Of a stretch of 64,000 bases of DNA, positions 46,962-53,983 are shown in pieces. The notes under the pieces were generated by a model. It was not told the DNA's origin. It worked only from the letters and a program-made list of their open reading frames with translations, and did no database searches. Position numbers and translations under genes: made by a program. The stretch lies in the NCBI RefSeq assembly GCF_004762095.1, contig NZ_SIJH01000002.1, forward strand, positions 62,001 through 126,000, in the 5' to 3' direction. The stretch's first letter is position 1; each line of letters opens with the position of its first letter. The stretch is from Tabrizicola caldifontis. GTDB taxonomy: Bacteria; Pseudomonadota; Alphaproteobacteria; Rhodobacterales; Rhodobacteraceae.

Positions 46962-49009
46962 CTAGTCGCGCGCAACAGTACGCAGCTCCAGTTGCAGGAT
47001 CGCAGGCATGGGAAAGCATCGTCACCGGCGTCCGACAGGGGCATCGCACCGCGTGTCGTCATGCCGAACCCGGCTTCGGCCAGCACATCGCCAAAGGCCG
47101 ATCTGCCCAGGCTGCGCGAGCTGTCCAGCGCCGACTGCGCCAGCCAGGACAGATCCTCGACCGGGCTTTGCGGTTTTGCAGGCGTCAGCACGACCAGCAT
47201 CCGTTCCTGCCCCAGCACCTGGTCCGAGATCTTGAACAGGCCTTCCTTCAGTTCGTCACCCGGCTGAAGCCGACCCGCGAACCAATGGCTGATCGACCAG
47301 TCGGCGCCGATGTAAAGGACGTTCACGTCCACCGGCCCGTCGGTGTTGTTCCGCGCAAGCACATGTACCTTATCCTCGGGCAAGAGGGTCGGAACCGGAG
47401 TGAAGGGCAGGGGCTCAAGCGTCCGTTCCCCTGGCGTGCGGGTCAGAAATTCCACCTCTACATCCAGATTGCCGGCACCGACCGCCGCCCCCAGTTTCAG
47501 CAGGTTCTGCGCCCGGGCCATGGTGGTCAGCATGTCGGCCAGCGTGGCCGCCAGCGTCGCGCCATCCTTGTCGGCAGTCGAAGCCGAGGGGGTCGAGGCG
47601 AAGTCCCCGGCAAGTCCCGTCGCGGGCAGCACCCAGATCGCGTCCGGGCGCGGGCTGTCGGACAGGACGGCAAGCCGCAGGTCGGCGTCCTGATCGGCGG
47701 CAACGAAATTCAGACGCGGTCCGGCATTTGCCCTCAGCTCGTCCTGCGCCGCCAGCAGCGCATCGGCAGGGGCAGATCCTGGTAGTGGCAGGGCGACCGA
47801 CAGGGTGAAGTCAAGCGCCTCGTCCAGTTTGCGCAGGGTCACGCCCTTCGGCAGGTCGGCGGGCAGGGTCTTGCCTTCATGCTCGACCGGCTGAGCGGTG
47901 GCAGAGAAGGTGTCGACGCTGGTCAGCCGCACAAAGCCCAGCGCCGCGTCGCTGGCATCGGCGGCCGAAGCCATCACCGCCAGTAGCGCGCCTTCCGGCA
48001 GCCCGTGCAGGCTGCCCGCCGGGATGGCGAAGCCCGCATCCGTCACCTTGGCCTGCCATTGCGAAACCCTGGCGCCGCCCTCGCCGAAGAAGGCCACCCG
48101 ATCAAGGTCGCCTTCGAACAGTGGTGTCGATGTCGCCAGGTTCTGCACCGAATATCGACGCAGAATTTCCTGCCCGATCTGACCATAGGTCGCCTGCGGA
48201 AATTCGGCCAGAACCTCCATCAGCGTGAAGGTGAACACGCCCTGCGGGCCCGGCTTGCCCCTGGGCATGTTCCGTTCCGGCGTCACCTCATTCGTCCGGG
48301 CGGCAAAGAAGGCGACAAGGCTGCCTTCGCCGGTTGTCGCATCGAAGGGCGCCTCGGTCCTGCGCGGGTCGCCGATGCTGCGGGTGGCCAGACGCTCTAC
48401 TGCCAGCGGATCGATTCCCAGCGCCTCTGGCGGCAGCTGTCGTGTGCGCACCTCTTCATCCGCGCCGTCCAGGCTGCGGGTCACGGTGCCGGAGTGGCAG
48501 CTGTCGAACACCGCCCAGACATTCGCCCCTCTGGTGCGCAATCCGTCGATCAGCGCGTTTTCCACCACGCCGATCTGGTTCGACCCGGGTCCGATGTCCG
48601 CGGGCAGAAACAAATCATCAAGCCCGTCAAGTTCTGTTGCCGGATCCAGGGCCGGGGCCTGCGTGCCGTGGCCGCAGAAATGGAGATAGACGAAATCCCC
48701 CGGTTCCACCTTCGCGGTCAGATCGGCAAAGGCCGCGCGGATCGCACCCAGCGTCGGAAGCGGCGCGCCCTCGACTGCGTCCTACAGGATCGTCACGTTT
48801 TCCGGCGCGAAAGGCACCGGGGCCCGGCTGGTCAGATAGGTGGATACCAGTTGCACACCGTTGCCGGGGCCTTTCAGCCACCAGCGTTCGGCCCGGTTCT
48901 GATACCGGTCCACCCCGATCAGCAACGCATGGTTCTGTCGCGCCGGGGCAGGCAGGGCAGCAAGGCAAAGGGCAGAGGAGAGATTAACCTGTTTGATCAG
49001 TTGGTCATC
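46962..49009 (-). pseudogene. Disrupted periplasmic caspase-family protease
   Basis: Read on the minus strand, the gene once encoded about 680 residues. An N-terminal signal-like segment (SSALCLAALPAPARQ) leads into the caspase p20-type domain HALLIGVDRYQNRAERWWLK, then VTIL. There an in-frame TAG (48782-48784) interrupts the frame; it resumes with DAVEGAPLP, the His block YLHFCGHGTQ and the Cys block FDSCHSGT, so both catalytic residues survive. The C-terminal half resembles DUF4384-like regions (VHVLARNNTDGPVDVNVLYI). Near 47012 the frame is lost: the expected ending MPAILQLELRTVARD and its TAG (46962-46964) lie one frame over, consistent with one base missing from a C run. No sensible ATG remains at the 5' end either. 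Three lesions make it a pseudogene unless they are sequencing errors. Confidence 0.85.
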
Positions 49010-49617
49010 AATGCATAGGCCGCCGAAGCCGGCCCCCTGTTTTCGACTTTCACGGTAAAACTGCCCGCTTCGGTCGGGATCCAGCCGTAATGGGCGATGT
49101 GGGAAATATCGGTGTCGGAACAGACCAGAAGCCCCTGATCGTCATGGACGGTCAGGTTCAGGTTGGTCGCGGCGCGGGCCTCGACATAGACCTCGGCATA
49201 TTCGCCGCCCCGGGTTTCGATCGGCGGATAGGTGTCGCCGCCGCCGTTCTTCAGCGAACCGATGTTGTAGACCGGACCCGAAGCCACGCCCTTGAACTTC
49301 TCGGCCAGGATGTCGTCGATCAGACCCAGCAGCGCCTCGTCCCCCGCCGCCAGCGCCCTTGCGGTGGCCAGCATTTCTTCCCAGCCCATGGGTTCGCCCT
49401 CGCCCGCTGCGCCCCCGATGGCGGCGCGATCCGATCGCACCGGGGCCAGCGCCTTGCGCAGCCTTGCCGCCGACAGGATCAGCATCGGTTACGCCGCCGC
49501 GACCCCTGCCGCACAGGTTCGTGCGGAAAGTTCGGCCAGCTTCACGGGCGAAGGGGCATAGGCCCCGGCGGGCACAGCCGGGCAGAAGATGGACAGGGCA
49601 AGCAGCGTGGGGCGCAT
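48997..49617 (-). pseudogene. Disrupted small secreted protein with PPC-like domain
   Basis: From ATG at 49617 the frame encodes a signal peptide (MRPTLLALSIFCPAVPAGA) and 42 residues, then meets an in-frame TAA (49489-49491). It continues without shift for another 164 residues, including MGWEEMLATARALAAGDEAL, and a C-terminal region (NLNLTVHDDQGLLVCSDTD, then FTVKVENRGPASAAYALM) resembling pre-peptidase C-terminal domains. It ends just where the caspase gene begins, so the two were probably one operon. Family not recognised. The piece from 49485 could in principle still be translated from its internal ATG but without export. Confidence 0.75.
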
Positions 49618-49770
49618 CGCGGGGGGACTCGTCCGGCTTTGGGTGGCGCAAGGATGAGCCGCGGGTTTCCACCTGCAAATGCGGGATTTCCGCATGACGG
49701 CCTTTGTCATGTGCCCTTGGCAGGGGGCGCTGCCAGCAAGACGGCACCGACGCTGGACAAGGGTTGCATC

Positions 49771-50780
49771 ATGGTGGCGAAAGTGTCGGGCTGGCGGTGC
49801 TTATGGTGCTGCTGCTGGTGCTGGTGCGCCCGGCGGCGGCCTTGCCCCCGGACGCGGCAATGGACCGGGTCTTCACCGTGCGCAGCGCCGATAGCGAGGA
49901 CCGGTTCCTCGGCTCGGCCTTTCTTTGCGGCCACGGATCGGTGGTGGTGACCAACGCCCATGTGGTGGGCGAGGCCGAAGCCGTGCGGCTGGTCACGCGC
50001 CACGAGGTCGAGGCGGTGGCTGCGGTCATCGCCCGCGATCCGGTGCGCGATGTGGCGGTGATCTCTGCCCCGCCGGAGCTGAACGGCAAGCCGGGCCTGC
50101 CGCTTTCGCCGACCTGCCCGCCCTCGGGATCAAGGTCTTTGCGCTGCGTGCGCCGCTCGGCATCGAGTTCACGCTGACCGCCAGGTAGCCGAGGCGCTGG
50201 GTCTGTCCAGCCTTGGCTTGCTGATCGACGGGGTAGAGCCGGGGGGCTGGCGGCACAGGCCGGACTGGTCGGCGGCGACATCCTGATTGCGGTGGACGGG
50301 GCCAAATTGCTGCGTCCCGGCGACCTTGCCTTTGCGGTGGAACGGGCCAGCATCGCGGGTCATGCCAGGCTGACCATCCTGCGCGGCGGCAAGACGCCGG
50401 ATCTGCCCCTGTCGCTCGCAGCCCGGGATCAGGCGCAGGGACTGAAGCTGCGCCAGGCGTCAGCCACGATGCCCGAGGCGGTGACATCCTGCCGCCTCGC
50501 CGCGCTGGGTGTGGTGCTGGACGGGTCGGGGATGGTGACCACCGTCAGCGACAACTCTCCCGCGCTGCATGCGGGCCTTGGCAGAGGCGACCGCATCCTG
50601 ACAGTCAACGGCGCTGCGGTGGACCTTGCCGATGACGAGATCACCGCTCAGGTCCTGATCCTGGTGCAGGCGCCGAGTGAGGCGACGCGACATAGCCGTC
50701 TGGACCCCTGGGGCAGCCACGACGGGATGCGCCCGGTTGGCGGGGCGAATGTGCTTGATCCGGCAGTGGCCGTGTTCTGA
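49771..50780 (+). pseudogene. Disrupted trypsin-like/PDZ serine protease lacking catalytic Ser
   Basis: Remnant of a secreted HtrA-like protease. A signal-like segment (MVLLLVLVRPAAALPP) leads to GSAFLCGHGSVVVTNAHVVG (catalytic His) and ARDPVRDVAVISA (catalytic Asp). The frame shifts near 50100 (continuing as ADLPALGIKVFALRAPLGIEF in another frame), again at about 50184 (continuing VAEALGLSSLGLLIDGVEPG) and again in a six-G run at 50241-50246 (continuing LAAQAGLVGGDILIAVDG). Between the second and third pieces the segment that should hold GNSGGP is absent, so the catalytic Ser is gone. Two PDZ-like regions follow (to 50780). A further shift separates the ATG at 49771 from the signal segment. 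Confidence 0.85.
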
Positions 50781-50794
50781 ATGATCCCATGCCG

Positions 50795-51556
50795 ATGTCC
50801 GACCGCATCCTGATCGTCGAGGATGACGCCGAAACCGCCGCCGCCGTGCGCCGCAGTGGAACACCTAGGCTGCGCCGCCGACCATTGCGCCACGCTGGAG
50901 GCCGGGATCGCCGCCGCATCTACCCTTACAAGGTCATCGTGCTGGACAGGATGCTGCCCGGTGGCGACGGGGTAGAGGCGATGGCGCAGATCAGGGCGGG
51001 TGGCTCGCAGGCGCTGATCCTGTCTGCGCTGGGCCGTGCCGCGAACCGGGTGGAGGGGCTGGAGAAGGGCGCCGACGACTATCTGGCGAAGCCCTTTGAA
51101 CCCGACGAGTTGCGCGCCCGCCTTCGTGCGCTGCTGAGGCGCGCCACGATGCAGGTGCAGGACAACGATCTGCTGGCCTTCGGCGATCTGGAAATCCGGC
51201 TGAAGGCGCGAACGGTGCATGTCAGGCGCGTGCATGTCGCGGTCAGTCCGAAGGAATTCGAACTGATCACCTTCCTTGCCCGCCACGCGGGTCAGGTGGT
51301 CACGCGAATGCAGCTGCTGGAAAATGTCTGGAACCTGCATTTCGACCCCGACACAAATGTCGTGGATGTTCATGTCGGGCGGCTGCGCCGCAAGCTGGAA
51401 GAGGCGCGAAGCGACGCGATGCGCGACGCTGCGGCTGGCCGCAGCGATGGCGCTGGCAGTGGCGGCGCTGTCTCTGGGCGCGATGGCGCTGCAGTACCGC
51501 CTTGTCGAAGCCCGGCTGATGGAGGCGCAGCGTGGTCTTCAATCGGCCGATCTTGA
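50795..51556 (+). pseudogene. Damaged OmpR-type response regulator
   Basis: Starts MSDRILIVEDDAETAAAV, with the acidic pocket, phosphoacceptor Asp in VIVLDRMLPGGDG and Lys in YLAKPFEPDE. Between about 50860 and 50930 the frame is displaced: the real helix (VEHLGCAADHCATLEAGIAA) lies in another frame, so two opposite shifts leave about 20 wrong residues but restore the frame. The winged-helix domain is recognisable (SPKEFELITFLARHAGQVV, VVDVHVGRLRRKLEEARSD) but the last wing, normally IRTVRGxGY, is missing; the frame runs on into the start of the kinase gene and stops at 51556. It may be translated but is unlikely to bind DNA normally. Confidence 0.8.
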
Positions 51557-52574
51557 CGGCTTTGCCGCGCTGTATGACCAGCACTGGATCATCGCGCTGC
51601 GCCAGGCCATCGACTACCGCGCTGCGGCGGCAACGGCGGACGAGATGCTTCTGCTGATGGACCGGGGCGGCACCGTTCTTGCAGGCACCCGCGCGGGCTG
51701 GCCCGCGGGGCTGGCGGCTATGCGGCGGGCAATGCTCGGCCTTCTGGGCGCCCTTCTTGTTGCTGGCGCGCTGGTTGGCGGTTTCGCGGCGCGCTCGGTC
51801 ATGGCCAGGATCAACCGGATCAACGCGCTGGCCGACCGTGTGGCCGAAGGCCAGCTGGACGCCCGCCTGCCGAGGCCGCGTTCCGATGACGAATTCGGCC
51901 TGCTCGAAACCCATGTCCAAGCCATGCTGGACCGCATCCGGAATCTGAACCGGGCAACGCACCGCCTGTCCGACATCATCGCGCATGAACTACGCACCCC
52001 CCTGAACCGCATGCTGCAGAAACTGGGCTGGATCGAGGATCAGGACAACCTGACCGCCGAGCTGAAGACCGAAATGCGCCAGGCAATCTGCATGTTCGAT
52101 CCGCTTCTGGACATCAGCCGGGCCGAGGCCGACCAGGGCACGGGTGGCGGACTGGTGCCGGTGGACCTTTCCGTAGTCACAACCGAGATGTGGGAGCTTT
52201 ACCAGCCCCTGGCCGAGGACAAGGGTCTGCTGGCCGGGGCAACCATCGATCCGGGCCTTGGGGTGCTGAGCGACCGCAACCTGATCGCGCAGATGCTGGC
52301 CAACCTTCTGGACAACGCGATCAAGTGGTGCACCGCAGGCGACCGGCACCTGATGCGCGTTGCCGACACCGGGCCAGGCCTGCCGGGCGCGATGAGGGGC
52401 GAGGCCTTCGCGCGGTTCGTCCGTGCCGAACGTGACCGTGCCCTGCCGGGCCACGGCCTGGGCCTTGCCCTGGTCCGCGCCATTGCGGCCCGGCACGGCG
52501 CGCAGCTTTCGATGCCAGGGGGATCCGGTTTCACCCTTGAAATCCTCTGGCCAAGGCTTCAGCAATCTGGCTGA
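51447..52574 (+). pseudogene. Histidine kinase of the damaged two-component pair
   Basis: An uninterrupted frame encodes 375 residues from an internal ATG. It has a first membrane span (MALAVAALSLGAMALQ), a short periplasmic part, a second span (LLGALLVAGALVGGFAA), HAMP, the H-box DIIAHELRTPLNR, N-box MLANLLDNAIKW, G1 DTGPGLP and G2 GHGLGLALV. The catalytic core looks sound. However its true 5' end is lost: the frame overlaps the response regulator by 110 bases with no start matching the family, and the periplasmic part (GTVLAGTRAGWPAGLAAMRR) is much shorter than expected, suggesting deletions. Labelled pseudogene because of its ruined start and its broken partner; it may still give a protein. 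Confidence 0.6.
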
Positions 52575-52592
52575 CCCCGAAACGGGCCCGAC

Positions 52593-53983
52593 ATGCGGCG
52601 CGCGTTTCTTCTCCTGCTGATCCTTCTGGGCTGCGCGCCGTGGAACCAGCCTCTGCAAGGCGAGAATCCCGCGCTTGTCGAACCCGCGACTATCGGCGAC
52701 GGCGCGCTTTACGTCGGTCTCGCCTTCTCTGGCGGCGGGTTCCGGGCCACCGCCTTTGCCTATGGCATGCTTGAGGAACTGCGCGCCGCCGGGGTGGAAA
52801 CCGGCACGCCTGACGGCCTGCTCGACCATGTGCATCTGGTCTCGGGCGTGTCGGGCGGGTCAATCATGGCGGCGCAGTTCGGGCTGAACGGGCCAGCCGG
52901 GCTGACCAGGTTCCGCGACCGTGTCCTGGTGCAGGACGGCGAGGAGTACATGGTAACCTCCCGTCTGAACCCGCTGACCATCGCCAAGGGCATGGCAGGG
53001 GTCGTGAACCGGCGCGACACCTTCGGGCGCTGGCTGGATGAACGGCTGTTCCATGGCGCGACCTTTGGCGACCTGCACGAACGGTCTCGCGTCAAGACCT
53101 GGATCAACGCCACCGACATGGCGAACAACGTGCCATTCCTGTTCAGCCCGGAAACCTTCGATGCGCTTTGTTCCGACCTCTCGAAGGTCCGCCTCAGCGA
53201 AACCGTGGCGGCAGCTGCGGCCTATCCGCTGGTCTTCACCCCCATCGTGCTGGAGGCGCATCACGGGCGCTGCGATTACCGCGAGCCCGACTGGCTGACC
53301 GCGGCCCGCCACAACCCCGCGGTCACGGCGGCGATGCGTGCCCGTGCGCGGGCGCTGGAAAGCCATGCCGACCCCGACGAGGTGAAATTGGTCAAGCTTC
53401 CGGACGGCGGGATCACCGACAACTACCGCGCCACCGGCCTTGCGGTGGAACGCGCCCGGGCGCAGGTGCCCCATGCGCCGCTGACGGCGGCCGAGGCGGT
53501 CAGGCTGAAGCGGATGCTGTTCCTGGTGGCCAACACCGGGGTGGACCAGGATGACGACTGGACAAAGAAGGTTCCCGGTCCCGGCGGCGAGGCGCTGGCG
53601 AAGTCGATCGCCACCATCGCCTTGGCTGCCGCCAGCCGTTCGGGCTATGATTCCATGCGCGGCGAGCTGCGGCAGTGGGAAAGCGAGCTGATCGAATGGC
53701 GCTGCGCGGTTCGGCCGCCGGATGGGACTGCCGCGATGTGAAACTGTTCGTCGGCAAGGTCAGTTTCGCAACCCTTCCCCCCAGCCCTGCGCGACGGGAT
53801 GAACGCCGTTCCGACCCGGCTGAAGCTGAGGTGGACAAGGTCATCGCGGCAGGCCGCCTGGCGACCAGGACGACGCCCGAATTCAATGGCTTTCTGGCCT
53901 CGCTGGCAGGAAAAGACGTGGACAGCCGAATCCGCGAGGGGATTGCCTCGGGCGGGCGGCGGATTGTTCCTGTTGGCGACTGA
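52593..53983 (+). pseudogene. Patatin-like phospholipase lipoprotein, C-terminus frameshifted
   Basis: The first 382 residues (52593-53741) are open: a lipoprotein signal with lipobox LLGC (residues 12-15 region), then the patatin motifs GLAFSGGGFRA (oxyanion hole), SGVSGGS (catalytic Ser) and DGGITDN (catalytic Asp). It would be an outer-membrane- or inner-membrane-anchored lipid acyl hydrolase. After EWRC the frame stops at 53741, while the natural continuation LRGSAAGWDCRDVKLFVGKV and, after two more shifts near a six-C run (about 53777), VDKVIAAGRLATRTTPEF to 53983 lie in other frames. So only the last 80-90 residues are damaged and the catalytic domain may still work. Confidence 0.8.

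Follow-up and report, generated by a model that had tools for sequence, protein, structure and literature searches.

Comparison with described systems

Envelope proteases of the DegP/HtrA type are linked to the envelope-stress two-component systems Cpx and Bae, and pathway-wide pseudogene decay and parallel gene loss form a common process in bacteria. To our knowledge, genetic evidence on the partners of bacterial caspases is scarce. A survey of prokaryotic caspase homologues (metacaspases, Peptidase_C14) places them in operons with proteases and with signalling genes, and reports multi-metacaspase operons from Alphaproteobacteria (PMC3501461). Here we describe a gene module of Tabrizicola caldifontis (G000; a 3.48-Mb genome in 53 contigs, completeness 99.98%), in which two caspases are found together with further proteases, a phospholipase and a two-component system. 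Six of its genes lie side by side in a 64,000-nucleotide stretch of DNA (G000:C12:62001-126000, hereafter the window), two more lie on another contig, and all eight are damaged. We consider it highly probable that one two-component-controlled, exported protease/phospholipase module became dispensable in this lineage and is now in mid-decay.

In an intact relative the module proteins match the Pfam families Peptidase_C14 (twice), Trypsin_2 with PDZ, an OmpR-type regulator, a HAMP/HisKA/HATPase kinase, Patatin and Trypsin. Both caspases of this relative, caspase1 of the six-gene block and caspase2, score well above the Peptidase_C14 cut-off (64.9 and 76.1 bits vs 21.4). The caspase domain with a His-Cys dyad is common to them and to the metacaspases of the survey (PMC3501461); we found the dyad in 28/28 caspase1 rows, and in caspase2 the His in 24/25 and the Cys in 25/25. 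In the operon section of that survey no operon is described that combines two caspases, HtrA, a two-component pair, patatin and trypsin. The curated cut-off of the NCBIfam model for EACC1-associated caspases (140 bits) is missed by both proteins (33.7 and 34.0 bits).

With its Trypsin_2 and PDZ domains, OmpR-type regulator and HAMP/HisKA sensor kinase, the module resembles the DegP/HtrA proteases with their Cpx and Bae systems. However, its kinase matches the CpxA and BaeS models far under their cut-offs, none of the NCBIfam matches listed reaches a curated cut-off, and its protease clusters with caspases and a patatin, unlike those of DegP/HtrA systems. The protease scores 191.5 bits against the Do/HtrA endopeptidase model TIGR02037, below the curated cut-off of 416.2, and is HtrA-like by its domains only. 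The PADLOC "caspase" anti-phage model is matched by both caspases (1.5e-23 and 1.2e-17) and a phospholipase effector model weakly by the patatin (6.9e-5). Unlike caspase anti-phage systems, the module comes with a two-component system and its proteins look exported, as judged by eye; no phage sensor was recognised among the eight proteins, and the PADLOC matches, limited to the caspase model and weak ones, did not add up to a complete system.

As in other cases of pathway-wide decay, the whole set decays together and several lineages lose it; unlike the usual case, a single genus shows the kept, decayed and missing states together. The protein families and the process of pathway decay are already known, while for the eight-gene set with its promoter element no paper was found by title or abstract start among those listed in a literature search. 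A tentative reading, about which we are more doubtful than confident, is that an intact module runs a proteolytic programme of the envelope that is controlled by a signal and has not been described before. The kinase would switch on the two exported caspases together with two serine proteases and the phospholipase, which would form a cascade for cell death, lysis or defence. If so, the module would be kept or lost whole because a part of it would be useless or harmful, and the genus Tabrizicola would supply, as a series found in nature, copies that work, copies that are dying and genomes that have none.

Lesions in the six-gene block

Lesions were called by frameshift-aware alignment of the window DNA to the intact proteins of T. 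aquatica RCRI19 (G016), one of the 32 Tabrizicola genomes of our genus set, which also includes T. soli (G004) and T. thermarum (G021). Over the six genes (46,965-53,983) the alignment gave 2 in-frame stops, 9 frameshifts and deletions of 94, 48, 11 and 10 residues. The caspase1 gene (46965-48982, minus strand), the remnant of a gene for a 687-aa protein, has an in-frame TAG at 48784, an 8-residue deletion near 48556 and a frameshift near 47014, and still encodes the catalytic His and Cys. Next to it, the gene for the PPC-like protein (49000-49605, minus strand; 204 aa in G016) is interrupted by an in-frame TAA at 49491. The HtrA-like serine protease gene (49758-50777, plus strand; Trypsin_2 and PDZ in G016) contains three frameshifts (50106, 50174 and 50239) and has lost aa 145-238, a deletion of 94 residues that takes away the catalytic Ser (aa 177).

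The other three genes, all on the plus strand, are damaged in different ways. The sensor histidine kinase gene (51423-52568) has neither stops nor frameshifts; the first 10 residues including the start are gone, and 48- and 11-residue deletions are present, with the H-box His and N-box Asn retained. In the gene for the OmpR-family response regulator (50774-51430) two frameshifts (50852 and 50922) cancel each other, and the last 13 of the 237 residues in G016 are lost while the phospho-acceptor Asp is retained. The gene for the patatin-like phospholipase (52593-53980) is damaged after aa 370, with frameshifts at 53706, 53786 and 53829 and a 10-residue deletion, and upstream of these it has small indels that keep the frame; the domain itself (aa 46-280 in G016) is open within a 382-aa open reading frame (ORF), with catalytic Ser and Asp retained. 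With mutually compensating shifts in the regulator and an open domain in the patatin, the case for inactivation is less clear for this pair than for the other genes.

An earlier note on this DNA had described all six genes as broken between two intact flanks, with two nonsense codons and a lost Ser segment of the protease among the lesions, and had suggested alignment to intact orthologues with a list of lesions. In the alignment to G016 every one of the six genes is damaged, and two nonsense codons (at 48784 and 49491) and a deletion that includes Ser177 are among the lesions. The description of the flanks holds: ArfB is free of lesions, and the hybrid kinase on the other side is open across 878 codons, its sole flag against G016 falling at aa 51, upstream of the presumed start. 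As a control outside the block, the window was compared with G016 ORFs, 26 of which found a match; almost all of these lie at 25.4-46.9 or 54-64 kb, the first 25 kb being sampled by a single one (at 6.2 kb), and 22/26 were without stop or shift. Among the four flagged ORFs one is antisense to an unflagged gene and three are flagged only within their first 51 residues, which we read as start artefacts. A survey of the hybrid kinase in relatives, which used the window's kinase as reference and is no test of the window copy, showed an in-frame stop at aa 701 in G020 (L027) and a frameshift at aa 757 in G002 (L024).

The 204-aa PPC-like protein of the intact relative matches zero Pfam families. 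Its predicted fold (mean predicted local distance difference test score, pLDDT, 74.3; predicted template modelling score, pTM, 0.46) matches the collagen-binding/PPC domains of collagenases, with a root-mean-square deviation of 1.7 over 89 columns and a template modelling score by target of 0.68 for 3jqw, but it matches other beta sandwiches too. A sequence search of the PDB returned a single match, to a designed protein (E 0.01). The predicted structure of the caspase was of low confidence (mean pLDDT 61.9, pTM 0.42) and was not used.

Two further damaged genes on another contig

The genes for caspase2 and a trypsin-like protease were found at G000:C23:147413-150163 (L071 9414-12164), and comparison with intact relatives shows that both are broken. 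In caspase2 the frame shifts twice and meets two stops, 28 residues are deleted, and Arg has replaced the catalytic Cys; the trypsin-like protease has a frameshift at aa 297. In 19 of the 24 Tabrizicola genomes that carry both parts of the module (the carriers), in G003 and in a single record from beyond the genus set, the patatin gene is followed by caspase2 some 80 to 530 bases on, and the trypsin-like gene comes next after caspase2 wherever the stretch extends far enough. The unit in Tabrizicola has at least eight genes, not six, and the damage is not limited to one contiguous stretch as the earlier note had it. The next two genes on C23 resemble the PPC-like gene and look intact, a single shift near the start of the second being read as an artefact. 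A functional duplicate elsewhere in the genome was rejected: a DNA search found no second copy of the block in G000, and the only caspase matches were the block copy and the broken caspase2.

Relaxed constraint at both loci

As a measure of constraint we used change at residues that are identical in all usable carriers. In G000, 80/1124 of these residues are changed in the six genes (7.1%) and 31/356 in the other two (8.7%), as compared to 0-3.5% (median 0.64%, 23 rows) and 0-6.5% (22 rows) in the carriers. G003 is further decayed, with 93/710 and 32/226 residues changed. The difference between G000 and the least conserved carrier, G002, is significant for the six genes (Fisher p = 9e-5), and in the hybrid kinase, used as control, 9/472 residues are changed in G000 against 0-3.3% in relatives. 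The degree of decay is alike across the eight genes (chi-square p = 0.58) and between the two loci (p = 0.36). Lesions in all eight genes and similar relaxation fit a roughly simultaneous loss of constraint.

These data also bear on local sequencing or assembly errors that mimic the breakage of intact genes, which the earlier note had named as the main alternative. Runs of C or G are found at or close to some of the shifts, the genome is a draft in 53 contigs, and the hybrid kinase is flagged in the gene body in 2/23 relatives (G020 and G002). On the other hand, change at invariant residues is about 11-fold over the median of the carriers, the partner genes on another contig are broken too, a 94-residue deletion and two nonsense codons are among the lesions, 22/26 ORFs matched elsewhere in the window are unflagged, and the hybrid kinase of G000 is within the range of its relatives. 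Since damage is found at two separate loci and the substitutions, too, show relaxation, we judge a fault of the local assembly to be very unlikely and hardly credible.

The open frames and retained catalytic residues of the regulator and the patatin domain would agree with a partial retention, in which these two still work and only the proteases are dead. However, their invariant residues are changed about as much as those of the rest (9/151 in the regulator and 21/257 in the patatin), and the partner kinase has lost its start region plus 59 further residues, which makes partial retention distinctly improbable. One draft genome, G042 (L203), has two frameshifts in the caspase and one in HtrA while its constraint is not relaxed (12/1223); as there is no relaxation, these shifts may be errors, or else very recent decay.

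Distribution and apparent repeated loss in relatives

The block and caspase2 are present in 24 of the 32 genus genomes, both parts are decayed in two (G000 and G003), and no match to caspase1 or caspase2 was found in the remaining six (G001, G006, G014, G015, G022 and G041; G006 and G015 are only 80-81% complete). The two parts are kept, decayed or missing jointly in 32/32 genomes (24/0/0/8 table, Fisher p = 1e-7, with genomes that are not independent samples). Some assignments have limits: caspase2 of G018 is a search match only, the parts in G002 end at contig ends, and caspase2 of G042, a draft of 81% completeness, is cut by a contig end. In 20/24 carriers, including the reference G016, the genes that could be seen have no breaking lesion; G002, G019 (at a contig junction) and G045 (near the caspase2 start) have one each, and G042 has three. 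In G003 all eight genes are decayed and the module is still at its ancestral site.

DNA searches of the six caspase-free genomes showed the flanks to be present, with no module genes among the matches listed; a short regulator-like match was seen in some of them. The empty site of G022 consists of a major facilitator superfamily (MFS) gene, a dispersed repeat and the next PPC-like gene, and in G014 the site holds an iolG-like gene instead (L196 5154-6155). In G015 the MFS gene is followed, some 140 bases on, by a short match to the trypsin C-terminus (L201 2698-2796; 33 residues at 45% identity, E 2.7e-5), possibly a deletion scar. In a tree of the neighbouring alpha-2-macroglobulin gene, G000, G001 and G041 form one group (support 1.0), G014 is the partner of G003 (0.995), and G022, G006 and G015 are found separately among carriers. 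Counting losses only, this one-gene tree, on which the count rests, would imply three well-supported loss events and up to five. Complete loss appears to have been reached by the relatives on their own paths. Where no working module is present, the genome tends to be slightly smaller (p = 0.03; 19 vs 6 genomes of at least 90% completeness).

Association of caspase and patatin extends to the family. With a caspase1 homologue cut-off of E <= 1e-60, 294 other genomes sampled from the family gave 20 with caspase1 and 17 with patatin: 15 have both, 5 caspase alone, 2 patatin alone and 272 neither (Fisher p = 3.6e-19). Among these 15, the two genes share a contig and lie no more than about 5 kb apart in 11; they are on different contigs in 3, and far apart in G250.

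Joint decay in G000 and several apparent losses in relatives suggest that the eight genes work as one optional system. The earlier idea that the six genes served one pathway that turned dispensable is supported by their similar relaxation, the joint fate in all 32 genomes and the decay in G003; its extent was set too small, the unit having at least eight genes. The two caspases are tied to HtrA, patatin, trypsin and the two-component system by the decay that they share at two loci and by being lost together more than once. As the gene set is defined and both natural nulls and intact relatives exist, Tabrizicola would allow tests of what exported caspases do in bacteria.

Site of the block and rearrangement

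In 9/9 relatives mapped, 6.5-6.8 kb of other DNA separates arfB from the hybrid kinase, and we therefore rejected this interval as the ancestral home of the block. The insert is a recQ segment in 6/6 relatives compared (recQ, iolG-like and transposase-like are names read by eye from ORFs), and in G000 this segment is located at C12:7963-14306, about 94 kb from the arfB-kinase site. The distance from arfB to the kinase varies within the genus, being about 13 kb in G008 and about 57 kb in G009, and in some genomes the two genes do not share a contig. The block flanks of G016 map to C9, C52 and C23 in G000, and a simple swap of block and recQ segment is therefore unsupported. An iolG-like dehydrogenase gene, present at the module site in G014, lies beside the relocated recQ segment in G000 (C12:6631-7920), hinting at linked rearrangements.

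The rearrangement could itself have been the cause, if the block was parted from its site and partners, thereby disabled, and then decayed mechanically. Its non-ancestral position between arfB and the hybrid kinase, the displaced recQ segment and the location of caspase2 and trypsin on C23 are in line with this. In G018, G019, G024 and G046, however, caspase2 does not adjoin patatin and the genes seen are open, except for the contig-junction flag in G019; relocation alone is not enough to kill the module. Furthermore, G003 decayed without leaving the ancestral site, and G001, from the same clade as G000, is without the module yet has kept the order arfB-recQ segment-kinase. We consider this explanation unlikely.

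The block might also have been gained by transfer from another lineage, perhaps already decaying, and been inserted between arfB and the kinase. Besides the non-ancestral site, the absence of the module from the nearest relatives, G001 and G041, would agree with a gain, as would the tree of caspase2 and trypsin, where G000 groups with G002 (0.70) within a wider group that includes G019 and G046 (0.989), unlike in the alpha-2-macroglobulin tree. In the six-gene tree, by contrast, G000 is placed weakly (0.64) on a long branch that is not nested with a single carrier, and the module parts are similarly decayed at two sites. No integrase or transposase was recognised by eye in the ORFs beside the block, no dedicated search having been made, and no repeat pair that could have mediated movement was found at the block ends among 20/36 direct families and 25/52 inverted pairs. 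Transfer is therefore decidedly unlikely.

Several observations weigh against decay of one whole module in G000. The shifts in the response regulator cancel, so that its frame can be read through, and no lesion closes the patatin domain. G002, which we count as a carrier, also has elevated change (3.5% and 6.5%), and residues misaligned near shifts may somewhat inflate the count for G000. The ratio of the rate at codon positions 1+2 to that at position 3, at invariant sites of the six genes, is 0.44 in G000, 0.81 in G003 and 0 to 1.31 in carriers, and does not separate G000 from the carriers because few third-position sites are invariant. In the module trees G000 has a weak position for the six genes and falls with G002 for the other two. 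Finally, the gene set varies beyond the genus: no patatin was found between kinase and caspase2 in a Xinfangfangia record (L185), and no caspase2 or trypsin was found in the locus of Tabrizicola sp. SY72 and UBA1943 (L186 and L188).

Repeats occur around the module in relatives. A dispersed repeat of about 110 bp, on both strands, lies between trypsin and the next gene (L037 16670-16920); it is present many times in the genomes searched and still present at the empty site of G022. A second one of about 40 bp, up to 97% identical (L037 2195-2250 and 5877-5943), has one copy near the left end of the module and many copies in several genomes. A transposase-like ORF was seen by eye near the contig start in G000 (C12:350-1102, L074).

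Candidate promoter element and proposed working of the module

A conserved promoter/operator-like element of 40 bp (49672-49711, plus strand) is located between the PPC-like gene and htrA, in their divergent promoter. It carries an inverted repeat of the ATGAC..GTCAT type and is similar in records outside the genus set. In the PPC-htrA intergenic alignment 56 columns are conserved at >=95% (23 genus rows), and three records outside those rows match 43, 43 and 48 of these columns. We regard the element as a candidate operator of the module's response regulator.

We propose that the module comprises the caspase, the PPC-like protein, HtrA, the OmpR-type regulator, the sensor kinase, patatin, caspase2 and the trypsin-like protease, and that the two-component pair probably activates the divergent promoter via the 40-bp element. 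Export signals, and a lipobox on the patatin, can be read by eye from the protein starts, and the enzymes are apparently exported. Activation would then put the proteases and the phospholipase into the envelope. The putative biochemical role of the products would be a joint action there. In this Tabrizicola lineage the need for the whole module would have ceased, and constraint would have been lost at about one time across the eight genes. Rearrangement has brought six genes to a new site and left two on another contig, and may have come before or after the relaxation.

The element pattern, which was derived from the same alignment, has 1 match in the window vs 0 in 100 shuffles. G000 deviates at 14/56 conserved columns: five lie at the start of the PPC-like gene, six are gaps where htrA begins, and the remaining three are substitutions, of which one falls inside the 40-bp element and another beside it. 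A search that covered the fetched loci found the strict core in 72/233 of them (many overlapping), once each, with a PPC-like gene upstream in 72/72.

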